From assembly GCF_017433805.1 (NCBI RefSeq), contig NZ_JAFRGN010000007.1, positions 124,001 through 188,000 of the forward strand: a stretch of 64,000 bases of DNA. Reading direction: 5' to 3'. This document shows, piece after piece, positions 11,789 through 58,743 of the stretch (position 1 is its first letter; each line of letters begins with the position of its first letter). This DNA comes from Butyrivibrio sp. (GTDB taxonomy: Bacteria > Bacillota > Clostridia > Lachnospirales > Lachnospiraceae). The notes under the pieces are model-generated. The model ran no database searches, was not told the origin of the DNA, and saw nothing but the letters and a program-made list of their open reading frames with translations. The position numbers and the translations under genes are program-made.

Positions 11789-13219
11789 TCAATGTCTATC
11801 TGTCATCATATTGAGAAGTCTTTCGAGTTCCACAAAATGCTGCTCTTCCATGAAATTCTCTCTGAAATACTTGCGAGCCTTTTCGCCGCAATCAGAGTAC
11901 TTTTCTTTATAATCCGCAAAGTCCAGAAGCGCCTGTCCATAAGCCTTGTCATCTCCTGCTGCAACACACTTGCCACACTCTGCCTCTTTTATGATATCCA
12001 TGGCTGCGCCATTAGCCGCCGCCAGAATTGTCTTACCTGCTGCCATGTAGGTCTGAAGCTTACCTGGAAGTGTATCTCCGATATGAGTTGAACCATCCAG
12101 TGTCAGAACACAGGCATCAGCCTTGTTGTAATAAGCTACTGCTTCTTTAAATGGCTTAGGTCCATAGAAGGTAACGATATCCCCTATTCCAAGGTCCCGA
12201 GCCAGTTTCCGAATATTATCAAACTCAGAGCCGCCTCCTACCATGTGAAGGTGTACATCATTACGCCCCTTGAACACGGTCATTGCCTTCATCAGACAAT
12301 CAAGATTCTGAGCCTTACCAATGTTTCCTATGAAAAGAAAGTCTGTATGATTTATTCCGTCATTTCCAACTAAATCATATGCATTATCATTAGATTCAGA
12401 ACTAGTATTAGTCACATTCTGATTACTAATCTTACTCGTATCAAGCTCCAGCAGCCCCACATCCGCATACTGTGGCAGATAGCTCATCTTGTCCCTGCTA
12501 ATCCCATTCTTTTCCTCCATGTACTGGAAGAATGGCTTGGAAGAAACTGCGATGTGATCACACTGTCTGTATATTCTCTTGGTCCACCAGTGGATGAGCT
12601 TATAAGGAAGTGTTCCTTCCTTGATACTCATAGCTTTGACACACTCAGGCCAAATATCCATACAATACAGGAAAAGAGGCTTTTTGTACCTCTTTTTAAG
12701 GGCAATCGCCGGAACTGCCATAGTCACCGGAGATACCTCCCACACATATATAACGTCAAAGTCTGCATCATCTATATCACTTAATGCACTACTTCTAATC
12801 CCAGCACTACCAATTCTATCTGTATCTTTCTGATTTTCACCTTTTCCCCATACATCAGTATGTTTCCAGTCCTGGGTTCTGGCTCTCATCCATCCATTTA
12901 CAACAAATGACAGGTAACTAAGACTTCTCCATATCGGTCCATGGTGCCTTGCTATGGTCTGAACTCGGTAAACGTCAGCGCCCTTGTAGTTCTGGTGCCT
13001 GTTCTGCCCATGTCTGTACTCAGGCGGAATCTTAGTAGTGGTGTAATCCGGAAGTCCTGTTAGAACTGTTACCCTATGACCTCGCTTAACCAATTTCTCA
13101 ACTATATCATTGATTGCATATATATCCGGCCAGAAGCACTCTGTAACCACTAGGATACGCAGCGATCTATTTCCATCATTATTCACTTTATCTATCCCAA
13201 CTACGCTTGTATCCGTCAT
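11789..13219 (-). CDS. Glycosyltransferase family 4, WbuB-like (probable FucNAc transferase)
   Basis: A 476-residue GT-B enzyme with LVVTECFWPDIYAINDI near the N-terminus, VSPVTMAVPAIALKKRYKKP in the middle, a FIGNIGKAQN donor-domain start and LPGKLQTYMAAGKTILAAANG at the C-terminus. These match WbuB, the L-FucNAc transferase type, and agree with the CapE/F/G genes nearby. The protein is longer than usual (about 400). The excess is three polar low-complexity stretches: residues 1-20, about 120-155, and about 255-285, the last with Ser/Asn/Thr-rich VTNTSSESNDN. The active-site regions look intact. Its 5' side abuts the dyad array at 13,243-13,796. Donor specificity is inferred from context. 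Confidence 0.85.
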   Translation of the reverse strand: MTDTSVVGIDKVNNDGNRSLRILVVTECFWPDIYAINDIVEKLVKRGHRVTVLTGLPDYTTTKIPPEYRHGQNRHQNYKGADVYRVQTIARHHGPIWRSLSYLSFVVNGWMRARTQDWKHTDVWGKGENQKDTDRIGSAGIRSSALSDIDDADFDVIYVWEVSPVTMAVPAIALKKRYKKPLFLYCMDIWPECVKAMSIKEGTLPYKLIHWWTKRIYRQCDHIAVSSKPFFQYMEEKNGISRDKMSYLPQYADVGLLELDTSKISNQNVTNTSSESNDNAYDLVGNDGINHTDFLFIGNIGKAQNLDCLMKAMTVFKGRNDVHLHMVGGGSEFDNIRKLARDLGIGDIVTFYGPKPFKEAVAYYNKADACVLTLDGSTHIGDTLPGKLQTYMAAGKTILAAANGAAMDIIKEAECGKCVAAGDDKAYGQALLDFADYKEKYSDCGEKARKYFRENFMEEQHFVELERLLNMMTDRH

Positions 13220-13242: not shown

Positions 13243-13796
13243 TTAGCCGCAAATTACTCATTTTCCTCTTGCGGCTAATCGAATTTCACTGCTACTCACT
13301 CTTTTTTTAGTCGCAATCACCTCTTATCACTACTTGCGGCTAATCGAGTTCCACTGCTACTCACTCTTTCTTTAGCCGCAATCACCTTTTATCACTACTT
13401 GCGGCTAATCGAGCTCCACTACTACTCACTCTTTCTTTAGCCGCAATCACCTCTTATCACTACTTGCGGCTAATCGAGTTCCACTGCTACTCACTCTTTC
13501 TTTAGCCGCAATCAACTTTTTTCACTTATTGCGGCTAATCGAATTTCACTGCTACTCACTCTTTCTTTAGCCGCAATCAACTTTTTCACTTATTGCGGCT
13601 AATCGGGCTCCACTGCTACTCACTCTTTCTTTAGCCGCAATCACCTCTTATCACTGCTTGCGGCTAATCGAGCTCCACTACTACTCGTTTTTCTTTAGCC
13701 GCAATCACCTCTTATCACTACTTGCGGCTAATCGAGTTCCACTGCTACTCACTCTTTCTTTAGCCGCAATCAACTTTTTTCACTTATTGCGGCTAA
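13243..13796. repeat. Array 1: nine tandem TTAGCCGC-N21-GCGGCTAA dyads
   Basis: The gap between two codirectional polysaccharide genes is filled by nine dyads. The left arm TTAGCCGC starts at 13243, 13307 (variant TTAGTCGC), 13372, 13437, 13502, 13567, 13631, 13695 and 13760. The right arm GCGGCTAA starts at 13271, 13336, 13401, 13466, 13531, 13595, 13660, 13724 and 13789. Arm-to-arm steps are 29 (28 twice) and 36 (35 once, 36 otherwise), so the period is 64-65. Inner spacers are mostly 21 bases and linkers 28 bases, and both are nearly identical between units. The array begins with a left arm and ends with a right arm, so the 37-bp dyad is the unit. It has no coding potential that I can support. 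It lies inside an apparent operon and would be transcribed as a chain of hairpins. Confidence 0.93.
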
Positions 13797-13821
13797 TCGA
13801 ATTCCACTTCGCTTGTCGTCT

Positions 13822-14862
13822 TTATTTACCCATTGCAGCAAGCTCTTCCTGAACGAAAGTTGTAGAAAGGAGCTTCTTAACTGTGCCCTCAACATCAAGT
13901 CTTGTTGTGTTATGGCTTGTGTATGCCTCTTTGGCAGCTGTCTGAACTTCGCCCTGAACATAGAACTTGTCGTAGTTAAGATCTCTAGCGTCAGCTACAA
14001 CTCTGTAGTAGTCGCCCATATCCTCTGCACGAAGTCTCTCTTCCTTGGTCAGAAGAGTCTCATAGAGCTTCTCGCCGTGTCTTGAACCGATGATCTTGGT
14101 CTCAGTCTCGCCAAAGAGCTGCTGAACAGCTGTAGCAAGATCTCCGATTGTAGAAGCGTCAGCCTTCTGAACGAAAAGATCTCCAGGATTGCCGTGTGTA
14201 AATGCAAACATAACAAGATCAACAGCCTCATCAAGGTTCATCATGAATCTTGTCATGTTAGGATCTGTGATTGTGATAGGATGTCCGTTCTTGATCTGAT
14301 TAACGAAGAGCGGAATAACTGATCCTCTTGAGCACATAACATTACCGTATCTTGTACAGTTGAGGATTGTTCCTCTCTCTGCTGCCATTCTTGCGTTAGC
14401 ATATACGATGTGCTCCATCATAGCCTTGGAGATACCCATTGAGTTTATAGGGTAAGCTGCCTTATCAGTTGAAAGGCAGATAACATGCTTAACTCCATTT
14501 TCAACAGCTGCATGGATCAGGTTGTCTGTACCCTCGATATTGGTACGAACAGCTTCCATTGGGAAGAACTCACAGCTTGGAACCTCTTTAAGAGCTGCTG
14601 CATGGAATACATAGTCAACGCCTGGCATGCAGTCACGAAGACTCTGAATATTCCTTACGTCTCCGATAAAGAACTTAACCTTGCTGTAGTGCTCAGGATG
14701 GAAAGCCTGAAGCTCATGTCTCATGTCATCCTGCTTCTTCTCATCTCTTGAGAAGATTCTGATCTCCTTGAGGTCGCTATCAAGGAAGTGGTCAAGTACG
14801 CAGTGACCAAAGCTTCCTGTACCACCTGTTATAAGAAGTGTTTTATCCTTAAATTCGCTCAT
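13822..14862 (-). CDS. capE: UDP-N-acetylglucosamine 4,6-dehydratase/5-epimerase, CapE/FnlA type
   Basis: A 346-residue soluble short-chain dehydrogenase of the FlaA1/CapE group. The NAD(P) loop is TGGTGSFG (12-19). The catalytic region reads STDKAAYPINSMGISKAMME, in which the usual Tyr is replaced by Met with Lys kept, as is normal for this group. The C-terminal GSRHGEKLYETLLT motif is also conserved. The enzyme converts UDP-GlcNAc to UDP-2-acetamido-2,6-dideoxy-L-arabino-hexos-4-ulose, the first step to UDP-L-FucNAc and also the PseB-type substrate of PseC enzymes. Lacking membrane helices, it is the soluble CapE/FnlA form. GGGAG precedes the ATG. Array 1 starts just after its stop. Confidence 0.92.
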   Translation of the reverse strand: MSEFKDKTLLITGGTGSFGHCVLDHFLDSDLKEIRIFSRDEKKQDDMRHELQAFHPEHYSKVKFFIGDVRNIQSLRDCMPGVDYVFHAAALKEVPSCEFFPMEAVRTNIEGTDNLIHAAVENGVKHVICLSTDKAAYPINSMGISKAMMEHIVYANARMAAERGTILNCTRYGNVMCSRGSVIPLFVNQIKNGHPITITDPNMTRFMMNLDEAVDLVMFAFTHGNPGDLFVQKADASTIGDLATAVQQLFGETETKIIGSRHGEKLYETLLTKEERLRAEDMGDYYRVVADARDLNYDKFYVQGEVQTAAKEAYTSHNTTRLDVEGTVKKLLSTTFVQEELAAMGK

Positions 14863-53939: not shown

Positions 53940-54269
53940 TCACTTACACAATTCGCATATTGTCTTTAGATAGTCTTTTATATTGAATTGATGATCTGCA
54001 TCCTCAAAAGTCATAATTAGATTCTTTCCCTGGACTATTCCCATTTTCTCAAAATTTCTCATTTTCCAAAAGAAGCTTTCTCTATATCCTTCTGAGGCCA
54101 TTTTGCCGAAATGTTCTATATATACGCATTCTCTTTTCCTGACATTTAGCACTGTAAAATCGGGATTAAACATGGTCTTGCCCTGATAAACATAAGGAAG
54201 CTCATATTGATAAAGGATTCCAAGCCTTAGCAAAGTATCCGCGATAATTACTTCTGATTTAGACCTCAC
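53940..54269 (-). pseudogene. C-terminal PD-(D/E)XK-like part of a split protein
   Basis: 109 residues, beginning with a GTG: VRSKSEVIIADTLL, then YQGKTMFNPDFTVLN and VYIEHFGKM. The Glu of the first block, the Asp of PDFT and Glu of IEHFG fit a PD-(D/E)XK-type nuclease core. In related full-length proteins as I remember them (about 300 residues), this block follows a linker joined to a helical N-terminal half. Here it overlaps the preceding reading frame by GTGA and lacks the linker. It is probably the end of a disrupted gene; a functional two-chain version cannot be excluded. Confidence 0.6.
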
Positions 54270-54604
54270 TGCCTCGCCTCGTTATAGCTACGAAAAATGG
54301 ATGGAATGTTACTATCGTTGTATGAGTTTATGATAGCATCTATCAATTCCTCTTTTTGCTCTAGCTCATGTATTACATCCTCAGCATATCTTTTCTGCGC
54401 CAACTTCTTCGCCAGATTCATATCTTTTGCCTTAATGAAAGTCCCAGTGCGGTCAGCGGAATTCTTGCGATGGTAATAGCGTGGATTAGATTTGGATCTT
54501 GTTATCCTAAGTGTCCCTTCAGGAGATTTCTCAATGTCTTCCCTTGCTTTTGACAGTATTTCTATTATGCGCTCCTGCTCGTTTAATAATTCTTCTAAAA
54601 ACAT
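54266..54604 (-). pseudogene. N-terminal helical part of the split PD-(D/E)XK-like protein
   Basis: 112 residues. A helix (LLNEQERIIEILSKAREDIEKS) leads to PEGTLRITRSKSNPRYYHRK and then FIKAKDMNLAKKLAQKRYAED and a C-terminal FRSYNEARQ stop. The same order (helix, PEGTLRI, YYHR, AKKLAQ, EARQ) occurs in the N-terminal half of the longer family members I recall. Its end joins the next frame directly at the RSKSE motif, which suggests that the 50-80 residue linker was deleted and the frame shifted. A promoter about 220 bases upstream is intact. Confidence 0.58.
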
Positions 54605-54885: not shown

Positions 54886-55243
54886 TTAGCCGCATCAATT
54901 ATTTTATGATGCTTTCGGCTAATGGGATTTTGTGGATTTTCGAGCTTGATTAGCCGAATCATTGGGTTATGTGAGTTTGCGGCTAATACATTTTCTTGGC
55001 TTCTTCGATAGTATTAGCCGCATTTTGCAGAATCTCGTGTTTGCAGCTAATGCCCGATGCTCTTTAAATTTCATGTCATTAGCCGCACAAAAAGGCTCAT
55101 ATCAAATGCGGCTAATGGCCTCAAAAATCTCTTGAATTTCCATTAGCCGCACTTATATCTCATCATACATTGCGGCTAACAGTTCCCAAATACCCCATAT
55201 AATTCATTAGCCGCAAATACTCCCACATTTTATTTGTGGCTAA
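54886..55243. repeat. Array 2: six dyads with conserved arms and variable spacers
   Basis: Left arms (TTAGCCGC) start at 54886, 54950 (last base A), 55014, 55079, 55143 and 55207. Right arms (GCGGCTAA) start at 54915 (first base T), 54979, 55043 (third base A), 55108, 55172 and 55236 (second base T). Every left-to-right step is exactly 29, giving 21-base inner spacers, and every right-to-left step is 35 or 36. The spacers differ completely between units. The array starts with a left arm and ends with a right arm, as array 1 does. It sits between a consensus promoter and a terminator, outside any gene. Confidence 0.93.
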
Positions 55244-55301: not shown

Positions 55302-55338
55302 AACCCGGCGGGTGCCAAATTATAGCATCCGCCGGGTT
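55302..55338 (-). terminator. Terminator of the SGNH hydrolase gene
   Basis: A 14-bp stem with one mismatch (AACCCGGCGGGTGC with GCATCCGCCGGGTT) and a T-run TTTTGTTAT on the minus strand. It is about 75 bases past the stop. Confidence 0.85.
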
Positions 55339-55412: not shown

Positions 55413-57149
55413 TTATCCAACAACACCAAATCCAAGAATTGTAAATTTCTTGTCTGCCATGCCATCTGTCATCTTGATCTCGATGACGTGGCTCTCAGCC
55501 TTCTTGTTGTTGAAGATGATGACTGAATTGCAATGAGTCCAACCAACCTTGAGTGGATCGGCGTCCATTACCTTCTTGTCATCTACATACACTTCTGCAG
55601 TTCCGTGAGTAGGACTTCCGGAATCCTTGAACAGGAGCAGAAGCTTACTGCAGGTGATCTTCATCTTGAAGCTCTCTGTACCGCTCTCATGGCACCAGTT
55701 GTATGGGAACTCTGGAACTGGCTCAATCTGAGTATCCATTTCAACCATCTGAAGCTCCTCGTCAGTCTTGTTAAAGGAACCTTCTTCAAGCATACCAATG
55801 TGATACTTCTTCTTAAGTCTGGCAAGCTCGTGTCTGTCGATGAGCTCAACATTCTCGAAATCTGCTCCGATAACAGGCTTGATCTTGGATAGATCCTTCT
55901 CCTCGACACCTGTATCGAGACTTGTAGCATTGCCATTCACTTCATCCATCAGGTTGATGAGGCAATCGCTCATGATCTGGTGGCCCAGGTTACTTGGATG
56001 GAATACATCGTAAAAGAACTGATTCTTGGAAATAACTCTTCCGTCCTCTGGAAGTAGGTTAAACTGTGGAGTTACAGCATCAAGAACGCTGACCATAGGC
56101 ACATCGTAGCGAACACCAACTGGTCCAAGTCTGTCCTGAAGATTCCAATCAAATGAGAATACTGCAAACAAAAGAACTACTGCAGGCTTCCATGGAAGTG
56201 CAAGAGCCTTACGAACAAGACTCTCATAGCATACGCCCTTGGTCTCATCACCTTCATCGTTAACAGCAAACTCGATAACGATCATGTCAGGTTTTCTGAC
56301 ACCGCCGCGAAGGATGTCTCTTTCAAATCTAACCATTCCAAGCTCTGAAGGAGTTCCGCCTACACCGGCTTTTAAAAGAGTAACCTTTCCGCCGTTAGCA
56401 TATTTCTTTTCAAAACTATCTGCAAATACCTTGGGATAGCATTTTTCATTGATAGGAATAGCACCTGCGCCCTGAGTAATTGATCCTCCGATAAAGCCAA
56501 GAGTAACATCTTCGCCCTTGCCTGCTTTCTGTAGAACTTTCTCAAGTCGTCCTATGTTACCTGCCTGCATAAGGCTTCGACTGATCATCTCTTTATAGCC
56601 CTTTGATGTGAAATCAACCATAGATTCCATAGGCTGAATTGGTGCTACAAAGCCATTATTTAGATAAAATCTGACATCTGCTGATGCCTGTATACCAGAA
56701 CTTGCAAATTCAAAGCGAATCTGTCCTGGTTCATAATCAGTTGATACCCAATCAACATCGGACATCTGGATAACCTGTTCCATACCGTCCATATCAAGCT
56801 CTTTGACAATCTCTGTTGATGGTTCACCTGGTTTTTTCGGATACATCTGAAAAACAAATTTTACTTTTTCGTCTTTTAATCTTCCTGATACACTTACCCC
56901 AATTGAGTGTACCATCTTCTTTAATCCCTCTGTGGTCTTAAGAAGTTCAAGCATATAATCATCTGTGATATTTCCGGCAATTTTCGCTGCATTTATGAGT
57001 CTGCCGCTATCCTCATAAATAAACTGGATTCCTCTTCCATCTGGCTGAGGTGCTCCAAAAATGTCTTTCCCCTGCATTATAAAAAAGAATGGTTTTTTCT
57101 TGATAGGATCCTTGGGTGCCTTGGGTCCTCTAACTTCTGTTGCGTCCAT
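55413..57149 (-). CDS. SGNH/GDSL hydrolase, likely carbohydrate esterase
   Basis: 578 residues with no signal peptide. The N-terminal region (about 1-190) is a beta-rich domain with KKPFFFIMQGKDIFGAPQPDG. The hydrolase domain holds FIGGSITQGAGA (Ser in block I, about 221), GAGVGGTPSE (block II), EFAVNDEGD (block III) and FHPSNLGH (block V with catalytic His). A C-terminal beta domain closes the protein. It resembles carbohydrate acetylesterases that act on sugars inside the cell. It lies next to a sugar uptake operon and has a terminator on both sides. GAGGGT precedes the ATG. Confidence 0.84.
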   Translation of the reverse strand: MDATEVRGPKAPKDPIKKKPFFFIMQGKDIFGAPQPDGRGIQFIYEDSGRLINAAKIAGNITDDYMLELLKTTEGLKKMVHSIGVSVSGRLKDEKVKFVFQMYPKKPGEPSTEIVKELDMDGMEQVIQMSDVDWVSTDYEPGQIRFEFASSGIQASADVRFYLNNGFVAPIQPMESMVDFTSKGYKEMISRSLMQAGNIGRLEKVLQKAGKGEDVTLGFIGGSITQGAGAIPINEKCYPKVFADSFEKKYANGGKVTLLKAGVGGTPSELGMVRFERDILRGGVRKPDMIVIEFAVNDEGDETKGVCYESLVRKALALPWKPAVVLLFAVFSFDWNLQDRLGPVGVRYDVPMVSVLDAVTPQFNLLPEDGRVISKNQFFYDVFHPSNLGHQIMSDCLINLMDEVNGNATSLDTGVEEKDLSKIKPVIGADFENVELIDRHELARLKKKYHIGMLEEGSFNKTDEELQMVEMDTQIEPVPEFPYNWCHESGTESFKMKITCSKLLLLFKDSGSPTHGTAEVYVDDKKVMDADPLKVGWTHCNSVIIFNNKKAESHVIEIKMTDGMADKKFTILGFGVVG

Positions 57150-57249: not shown

Positions 57250-58743
57250 TTATTTGTTAGCTTCGTCAACATAAGCCTTCCATGTATCACGGATAGCTTC
57301 AACCTGCTCTGAAACAACAGCGCCAGGTCCGATGTTCCATACGAAGTCTGAACCAAGGTTAAGGTTAGGAACCATTCCGTGGTAAGCAACAGTACCCTTT
57401 TCTGTCATCATCTGGATTGTCTCATCAACTGCTCTCTCATCGAACTTACCATTTCTAGCTGTTGAAAGGTATCCGTTGTAATCAACGTACTCAGCTGCTG
57501 GTGGATTTGTCCAAAGGTTCCAAGCAAATGCGATCTTCCAAGCCTTATCAGCATCGTAGCAACCAGGGATTGCTGCTGGGTTGTTAGACCAAACGTTTAC
57601 ATAATCATCCTTCTTAGGTCCCTTAGGGAACATAACGAAGCCGATCTCATCCTGCATATCCTCAAGGAAGTTACCTGGGCATGCTGCATACTCATCTTCT
57701 ACCATGAATGCTGCCTGACCGTTGATGAACTGCTCTTTGTAGTAATCCCACTCAGCGCCCTCTGGGTTAGCAACTTCTGCATCATATGTATCGAAGATCT
57801 TAACTGTCCACTCAAGAGCCTCAAGTGTCTCAGGAGACTCAAGGTTGTATACGAACTTACCGCTAGCATCCTTGTCGATGTAAGAACCGTTGTTTGAGAA
57901 TACTGCAGCTGTTGTCATGTTACCTTCGTTAAGTGTAAGACCGTAAACATCGATTGTACCATCGTTGTCCTTATCCTGCTGAACCTTGCTCATAAGCTCT
58001 TCGAACTTATCCCATGTCCATGTTCCGTCAGCCTGCATATCGTAGATTGACTCAGGATCGATACCAGCCTCTGTAAGGAGTCTCTTGTTGAAGTAAACAC
58101 CTGTACGAGCCTCTGAGTATCCAGCGAACATAGCGTAGATGCTGTCGCCCTTTGAATACTGCTTGTGAAGAAGGTTTCTCTGGAACTTAACATCGTTGAA
58201 GTCAAGGCAGTCAAGTGTTGAAAGATCATACATAAGACCGTTTGACATAGCAGATGTGATAGCTGGATCATCACGAAGGATGAATACATAGTTCTCATCT
58301 CCGCCTGTTGTAGCGTAGTCTACGAAATCTGTAGGTGTTGAACCCCAGTCAGACATAGCTGTCTGTGTAAGTGTGAAGTTGTATGTCTCCTGGATCCAAT
58401 CTCTGTAATCCTTAAGTGCCTCTTCATACTCGTTCTGTGGCTCTGCTGGGTCGCCTGACCACCAGTCACGGATAACTACTTCGATGCCACCAAGATCTAC
58501 TGGGTTGCCATCTGCATCTGTGATAATCTGATAAGGATCATACTCGTCAGATGCTGCTTCTTCTGCAGGTGCCTCTGTAGCTTCTGCAGTTGCAGTCTCA
58601 GCTGTTTCTGTTGCTGTTGTCTCAGCTGGCTGCTGTGTGTCTGTTGATGCTGGTGCTGTCTCAGCTCCGCATCCTGCCATGCTTGTGAGCATAGCTGCTG
58701 CTGCGATAGCAGCTGTTGCTTTTGTTGTTAGAGACTTTCTCAT
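57250..58743 (-). CDS. Sugar ABC transporter substrate-binding lipoprotein
   Basis: 497 residues. A signal peptide ends at the lipobox TSMAGC (Cys about 26), followed by a Thr/Ala/Glu-rich linker of some 40 residues. The rest is an extracellular solute-binding protein of family 1, with DGTWTWDKFEELMSKV, INGQAAFMVEDEYA and IAFAWNLWTNPPA patterns. It should deliver an oligosaccharide to the two permeases upstream. AAGGAGG precedes the ATG. The gene has a possible promoter and dyad of its own at 58.8 kb. Confidence 0.9.
   Translation of the reverse strand: MRKSLTTKATAAIAAAAMLTSMAGCGAETAPASTDTQQPAETTATETAETATAEATEAPAEEAASDEYDPYQIITDADGNPVDLGGIEVVIRDWWSGDPAEPQNEYEEALKDYRDWIQETYNFTLTQTAMSDWGSTPTDFVDYATTGGDENYVFILRDDPAITSAMSNGLMYDLSTLDCLDFNDVKFQRNLLHKQYSKGDSIYAMFAGYSEARTGVYFNKRLLTEAGIDPESIYDMQADGTWTWDKFEELMSKVQQDKDNDGTIDVYGLTLNEGNMTTAAVFSNNGSYIDKDASGKFVYNLESPETLEALEWTVKIFDTYDAEVANPEGAEWDYYKEQFINGQAAFMVEDEYAACPGNFLEDMQDEIGFVMFPKGPKKDDYVNVWSNNPAAIPGCYDADKAWKIAFAWNLWTNPPAAEYVDYNGYLSTARNGKFDERAVDETIQMMTEKGTVAYHGMVPNLNLGSDFVWNIGPGAVVSEQVEAIRDTWKAYVDEANK

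Follow-up and report, generated by a model that had tools for sequence, protein, structure and literature searches.

Dyad arrays in Butyrivibrio and relatives probably point to an undescribed system with a predicted nuclease on one face of the DNA

Introduction

What keeps short inverted sequences at regular distances along the DNA while the sequence between them drifts, and which protein would read them? The question is raised by a 64,000-nucleotide stretch of a Butyrivibrio sp. genome (assembly GCF_017433805.1, contig NZ_JAFRGN010000007.1, positions 124,001 to 188,000; hereafter the window, meaning that whole stretch), which carries two arrays of inverted arm pairs, or dyads. As judged from sequence, the dyad arrays in Butyrivibrio and its relatives point to a system not yet described, whose nuclease probably lies on one face of the DNA.

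Results

Geometry of the two arrays in the window

Each dyad of array 2 consists of an arm TTAGCCGCA facing an arm TGCGGCTAA (n = 6), with one step between arms fixed and the other nearly fixed. The two arrays are located as follows.

54886..55243, no strand: array 2, six F-R dyads with 12 arms, unit of 64-65 bp corresponding to six helical turns
54886-54922, 54950-54986, 55014-55050, 55079-55115, 55143-55179 and 55207-55243: the six dyads of array 2
13243..13797, no strand: array 1, nine dyads with 18 arms, arms and unit as in array 2, near-identical tandem copies

With the 7-mer arms F = TTAGCCG and R = CGGCTAA, the arm starts of array 2 follow the formula F30R34F30R34F30R35F30R34F30R34F30R (54886 to 55243), in which the F-to-R step is 30 in all six dyads, the R-to-F steps are 34, 34, 35, 34 and 34, and two of the 12 arms contain one mismatch. 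The arms, their order, the coordinates and the steps of 29 and 35-36 (8-mer arms) that the original prediction had read from the letters of this DNA were borne out. Its statement that array 1 is identical in geometry holds in general, except that two of the nine F-to-R steps are one base shorter. Array 1 is also present in the sister genome G045. The window contains 32 exact arms, whereas 60 Markov-simulated windows averaged 3.8 and never exceeded 10; 23 pairs of arm neighbours lie no more than 60 bp apart, of which the simulated windows had none. The simulation that had been suggested as a check gave no comparable arm pattern.

A broken nuclease gene beside array 2

Array 2 is found upstream of a nuclease gene, at a distance of 282 bp; the gene is broken into two open reading frames (ORFs), which were recognised by tblastn with the intact protein of G045.

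54266..54604, minus strand: N-terminal half of the nuclease gene, residues 1-112 of the intact G045 protein
53940..54269, minus strand: C-terminal PD-(D/E)XK half of the nuclease gene, residues 161-272 of the G045 protein, in another frame

About 48 residues are missing between the two halves. The intact relatives are 268-274 aa long, and an intact nuclease gene has neighbouring arrays in three sister genomes. The broken gene is presumed to be the cognate nuclease of the TTAGCC arrays, which would therefore be orphans in this genome now. The earlier advice to look for a co-occurring enzyme was sound, and a PD-(D/E)XK-like nuclease gene is what stands beside array 2.

By sequence and structural model, the family belongs to the PD-(D/E)XK nuclease superfamily with predicted catalysis. 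The residues E163, E180, D194, E209 and H210 are invariant, the model of the C-terminal domain aligns with I-Bth0305I, Bax1, TnsA and Vsr, and 36 of 45 nucleases match a PADLOC PD-DEXK model. The family stayed below the cut-off of every Pfam and NCBIfam model, and the searches against Pfam, NCBIfam, PHROG and PDB sequences gave weak matches only, the top PHROG match being a Holliday junction resolvase family (E 2e-4). The fold search with the N-terminal helical part returned no named fold, and its helical matches were unspecific. Among the matches listed in a class-wide survey, in which at most 6 candidates were scored per genome, the family appears in 37 of 391 sampled genomes and 19 of 222 genera, partial matches included.

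Arrays accompany the nuclease genes

A motif-free search was applied to the nuclease loci with about 1.5-2 kb on each side (longer at L244). It accepted any 7-mer, with one mismatch, alternating with its reverse complement, one distance being fixed within 1 bp and the other ranging over 12-90, and a chain was called at no fewer than seven arms. The loci were the best matches together with rows picked from the match lists, and the second nuclease of L205 (6 arms) was left out. Chains were found in 64 of the 90 tabulated loci, that is, in 62 of 88 distinct ones (L186 repeats L158, and L214 repeats L191), comprising 39 of 50 within the genus and 23 of 38 outside it. Nuclease-free control windows yielded chains in 17 of 97 cases, 15 of which were TTAGCC arrays for which the loci had been fetched; after removal of these loci, two of 82 remained (an AGATGCA array and an irregular chain). 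The 30 shuffles produced at most 6 arms. No chain was found at the six loci matching part of the nuclease profile, at the nine viral loci with the nuclease domain, or in the single phage record with a relative (29% identity over 94% of the length). The longest chain lies 5' of the nuclease gene at 49 of the 64 loci, 3' at 10 and overlapping the open frame at five, with a median distance of 116 bp.

The arms follow the nuclease at close range. Arm similarity exceeded 4 in all 16 pairs with protein identity above 80%, in 6 of 29 pairs at 60-80%, in 15 of 119 at 45-60% and in 47 of 1712 below 45%; close nucleases share arms, and distant ones mostly differ. When all pairs were taken together, arm similarity did not follow protein identity (Spearman 0.03, p 0.18). 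AGATGCA-like arms occur near the nuclease of L189 (five arms) and as a nine-arm array in L021.

Unit lengths follow the DNA turn

The commonest unit length per nuclease cluster, taken over 42 clusters (below 60% identity), falls at 42, 51-55, 61-64, 73-75, 83-86 or 94 bp. A common period of 10.55 bp fits best (resultant 0.85, bootstrap interval 10.36-10.86), and none of 5000 random integer sets was as regular (maximum resultant 0.48). Regression on the rounded turn number gives 10.50 per turn with an intercept of 0.23 and a residual of 0.95 bp, a figure that is partly circular because the turn numbers were rounded. All length classes together (53 values) return the same period of 10.55 with a resultant of 0.80, the outliers being 48.0 (L227) and 76.5 (L161). 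The unit length is n x 10.5 bp with n = 4-9 over the 42 nuclease clusters, and where unit lengths are mixed inside one array, they differ mostly by about 10 or its multiples. Such a lattice is expected of B-DNA carrying a stack of proteins on one face. The fixed gap has a centre that is on average richer in A/T than that of the variable gap (73% vs 56% in 23 rows, or 22 distinct arrays, with one gap of each kind), with the opposite trend in L205, L213, L218 and L256.

The cooperative binding of a dimeric protein, which the original prediction had put forward, gains support from this 10.5 bp lattice as far as sequence evidence goes. Its other proposal, an RNA structure, is not supported. A-form RNA has about 11 or more per turn, outside the interval of 10.36-10.86, and an RNA helix is therefore disfavoured; the Rfam search of the window at gathering thresholds gave no match.

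Arrays across the genome

A dyad profile was built from 45 dyads of three genomes. In the genome of the window (G000), where 150 of 944 first-look candidates were scored, it gave 95 matches at E up to 10. All of them fall inside ten arrays on six contigs, so the dyad is found only in arrays as far as searched, and the two arrays first reported turn out to be two of ten. At most 81 and 16 candidates per genome were scored in the scans of the genus and the family, respectively, and with such partial scoring an absence of dyads or of the nuclease elsewhere is not proved. The pattern CGGCTAA-N12..42-TTAGCCG occurs 31 times per strand in the whole genome, with total lengths of 31-32 and 41-42 only, against 0 for the same pattern read backwards.

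In 99 non-redundant arms from G000, G045 and G070, the information sits in the arms and almost none in the spacers. The dissimilarity of the spacers claimed at first is confirmed to this extent, with the exception of an A/T-rich centre in the F-R spacer. Exact neighbouring arms in these genomes are separated by F-to-R steps of 29-31 and R-to-F steps of 24-25 or 34-35. Over the TTAGCC arrays as a whole, the 9-bp arms of a dyad are 19 bp apart and the longer linkers measure at least 25 bp, and the second (R-to-F) step is near 24, 34, 45 or 56 bp, that is, in steps of one DNA turn. The constancy of the inner spacer length, another early claim, is true of the fixed gap, and the second gap varies in other arrays by whole helical turns.

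The TTAGCC arrays are clearly dispersed in their own genome. For the TTACCGC arms, three exact dyads lie near their nuclease and two more at a different place, C57:205859-205956, and a further single dyad may be due to chance (control 2 per strand vs 6). Dispersal is clear for the TTAGCC arms only and thin for TTACCGC.

Some further chains were seen. A regular chain with arms like ATCGATG and steps of 25-26 and 36-37 occupies L018:17397-17700. Two very similar arrays 5 kb apart (L022:8246-8499 and 13257-13481), each 3' of a nucleoside hydrolase-like gene, look like a segment duplication. A tract near C29:8470 shows tandem duplication, as in array 1.

Distribution and evolution of TTAGCC arrays in relatives

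Among 79 genomes of the genus, the dyad profile matched in G000, G045, G070, G043 and G001, with one marginal single match in G051. In the profile scan of 397 genomes of the family, with at most 16 candidates scored per genome, matches came from G000, G043 and four genomes with one marginal place each, which is about what chance gives. A pattern scan of genome contigs returned 13 stretches, of which L025 was accepted as the only true array; L023 (Lachnospira UBA2821) and L027 (Lachnospiraceae TWA4) are two-copy 54-bp duplications for which chance could suffice and were not counted. The L025 stretch of G070 (Butyrivibrio sp. RGIG3377) is 99.6% identical over 1.5 kb to G000 contig C54 (L019), although the FlgN proteins of the two genomes are only 80% identical; a recent transfer or a misbinned contig would explain this. 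The segment directly after the L025 array (L025:2830-2900) resembles the start of RNase P RNA.

A step scan of the sister genomes G043 and G001, allowing F-to-R steps of 27-33 and R-to-F steps of 12-80, found F-to-R steps of 29-30 in 55 of 57 cases and 32 in two, and R-to-F steps of 44-46 in 34 of 52 cases and 53-56 in 14, the remaining four being 24, 24, 27 and 38. When the seven arrays common to the two genomes were compared, with arms assigned by position in the chain, substitutions were found at 5 of 350 arm sites and 111 of 1322 spacer sites (p 3e-7). Together with the 10.5 bp lattice, this sequence difference supports the earlier suggestion of selection on arms and spacing.

In G000, G045, G043 and G001 alike, an array stands at the identical position in front of flgM. 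Its spacers could not be aligned between G000 and G045, although the adjoining DNA is 78-92% identical. The close relative G050 lacks an array at this site and has, as read by eye, only a short inverted repeat. In 30 flgN loci, the motif-free scan found regular arrays in the same four genomes only and one further six-arm irregular chain. The difference between the C54 array and its counterpart in G070 amounts to exactly three units, or 193 bp when measured between F arms, and replaced spacers were seen in the same comparison. The arms and their register are kept, the spacers drift, and whole units are gained or lost. Free variation of spacer lengths in orthologous arrays, which the original prediction had named as an observation that would count against it, was not seen in the arrays compared, the changes being 0-1 bp or about one turn.

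A conserved 33-bp palindrome (CGGCTAAAATATGATT...), present once or twice each in L040, L041, L042, L048, L052, L055 and L056 from seven genomes within the genus, has the appearance of an ordinary terminator and not of an array.

Neighbouring features in the window

The two arrays are flanked by the following genes.

11789..13219, minus strand: glycosyltransferase gene, left of array 1, its start 24 bp from the array
13822..14862, minus strand: polysaccharide biosynthesis epimerase gene, right of array 1, its stop 25 bp from the array
55413..57149, minus strand: GDSL-type lipase/esterase gene, flanking array 2

The G045 orthologue of the lipase/esterase gene has an array at its 3' side too. 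Between array 2 and the lipase stop, a 14-bp G+C-rich inverted repeat (55302-55338) is probably the gene's own terminator. A chain of seven CAGCTGC arms with irregular steps inside an ORF (58514-58700) was taken as chance.

Discussion

It is likely, on the sequence relations described above, that a PD-(D/E)XK-type nuclease family uses the arrays as platforms for binding to DNA, each close group of nucleases having an arm sequence of its own. Each dyad, with its two 7-10 bp arms facing across a fixed gap that usually has an A/T-rich centre, would be the site of one nuclease dimer. Adjacent dyads would be whole DNA turns apart (units of four to nine 10.5-bp turns), which would place all the dimers on one face of the helix and allow them to stack. 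The array usually found about 100 bp in front of the nuclease gene would be the home site, and those between other genes would be spread copies. The nuclease may cut or nick at the arrays, with repair from another array copying and spreading the units; such a cycle would account for conserved arms, drifting spacers, gain and loss of units, replaced spacers and dispersal. We infer that the nuclease itself may bind the arms, cut or nick there and bring about copying and spread through repair. By analogy, the spread of arrays by the nuclease would resemble that of REPINs with RAYT transposases. We tentatively raise the possibility of a new bacterial genetic element, in which a sequence-specific PD-(D/E)XK nuclease forms a phased stack on its own dyad arrays, its cutting copies and spreads them genome-wide, and the recognition sequence turns over fast between paralogues.

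Several results weigh against this account. The indels per spacer substitution are not significantly rarer in the arrays than in the flanks (3/118 vs 57/801, p 0.10). The probabilities of the lattice overstate independence because the clusters share ancestry, for which the recurrence of different turn numbers inside single arrays is a counterweight. Moreover, arrays have been retained in two genomes that lack an intact cognate nuclease, namely G000 and, as far as found, G070.

The main rival is an operator or decoy role without mobility, in which a host-owned and perhaps defensive nuclease controls its own gene from the upstream array, the dispersed arrays being decoys or transcription roadblocks. 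It agrees with the longest chain being 5' of the gene at 49 of 64 loci at a median of 116 bp and with the resemblance of the nuclease domain to that of PADLOC defence candidates, and whole-turn spacing is typical of cooperative repressors. We nevertheless regard it as unlikely, as ten arrays of one arm type stand at unrelated genes and arrays remain in genomes whose nuclease is broken or was not found. Furthermore, the 24 tabulated arrays lie between 15 tandem, 5 convergent and 4 divergent ORF pairs (rough ORFs); since 20 of them are downstream of at least one adjoining ORF and four between divergent ORFs, most are not placed like promoter operators.

A separate DNA-binding protein, for example a nucleoid protein, might own the arrays with the nuclease as a passenger, which the persistence of arrays in G000 and G070 would favour. 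However, a general DNA-binding protein would not switch its site from nuclease to nuclease, and the sharing of arms among close nucleases, mostly not among distant ones, makes this quite improbable. The chains also stand beside full-length members, with none beside the six partial matches or the nine viral domain relatives.

Spacers guiding the nuclease as RNA, as in CRISPR or TIGR-Tas, would suit the short conserved repeats, the variable spacers and the adjoining nuclease gene. This is very improbable given that the unit lengths keep to the B-DNA turn and need not be equal inside one array, the spacers drift by substitution between sister genomes, the arms are inverted copies of each other, and the window has no Rfam match. 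Chance or a neutrally decaying tandem repeat has a negligible probability in view of conserved arms beside diverged spacers, 31 against 0 in the reversed-pattern control and a lattice common to 42 nuclease clusters. In its favour are the tandem duplication seen in array 1 and near C29:8470, the preservation of register by unit-wise deletion alone, and the indel deficit that is not significant.

The arrays tie an unnamed nuclease family to a repeat architecture whose unit length gives the DNA helical repeat, with a direct prediction of protein stacking on one DNA face. They may provide some 40 enzyme-site pairs in which to follow the evolution of nuclease specificity, and a route other than RAYT by which intergenic repeat families may arise.

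Comparison with known systems

No description of the array-nuclease system was found in the open-licence PMC literature searched. The Vsr-like homing endonuclease I-Bth0305I and TnsA have the fold of the C-terminal domain in common with the family, which differs in being free-standing, with a helical N-terminal part and repeat arrays; no intron, intein or Tn7 context of the nuclease genes was noticed, no search having been aimed at such context. The candidate defence proteins PDC-S68 and HEAT_CxxC_PD-DEXK of PADLOC contain a homologous nuclease domain in another architecture, member 1 matching positions 1090-1217 of a 1221-position model. The CIRCE operator of HrcA (TTAGCACTC-N9-GAGTGCTAA) has similar TTAGC...GCTAA arms with a spacer shorter by ten, but CIRCE elements are single operators and not arrays, and their inner arm bases differ from those of the dyad arms.

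The CRISPR and TIGR readings were rejected on geometry and spacer drift. In CRISPR-Cas, conserved direct repeats of 25-36 nt alternate with spacers of about the same size and cas genes are present, whereas the dyad arrays have inverted arms of 7-10 bp and, in the TTAGCC family, R-to-F steps of 24-56 bp, and no Cas family was found among the flanking proteins scanned with Pfam. TIGR-Tas is described with two alternating elements of 8-12 nt, variable spacers and an adjoining gene that may carry a nuclease domain, the two repeats being distinct, the spacers 9 nt (up to 12) and the Tas proteins bearing a Nop domain (PMC12045711). In contrast, the two elements of the dyad arrays are reverse complements of each other, and in the TTAGCC family a fixed spacer of 19 bp alternates with one that changes by DNA turns. 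Pfam recognised no Nop domain.

REPIN/RAYT systems and BIMEs, which are REP doublets with a tyrosine transposase, have short inverted sites paired or clustered between genes, a site family of its own beside each enzyme paralogue, the enzyme gene adjoining its sites, and dispersed copies (PMC3116915). Likewise, the dyad arrays consist of a short site in inverted pairs, lie between genes and are enzyme-specific, with the nuclease in place of RAYT; their dispersal is clear for the TTAGCC arms alone. The enzyme differs in being a PD-(D/E)XK-type nuclease and not a Y1 transposase; the single arms are not palindromic REPs, the spacers are not conserved, the units are whole helical turns, and no lone dyads occur among the profile matches in the own genome. 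A RAYT-like transposase as partner, as once suggested, was rejected. A PF01797 search of 12 genomes found a long RAYT-like protein (220-282 aa) in G000, G043, G001, G014 and G044 and none in the array-bearing G045, and the 12 Y1 loci read held no F-R arm pair at array spacing, including those of the 264-265 aa RAYT-like transposases of L154 (G000:C34), L152 (G043) and L153 (G001). As for the mobility of units, differences by whole units between genomes are what was seen. In its proposed way of working, the array-nuclease system has its closest counterpart in REPIN/RAYT.
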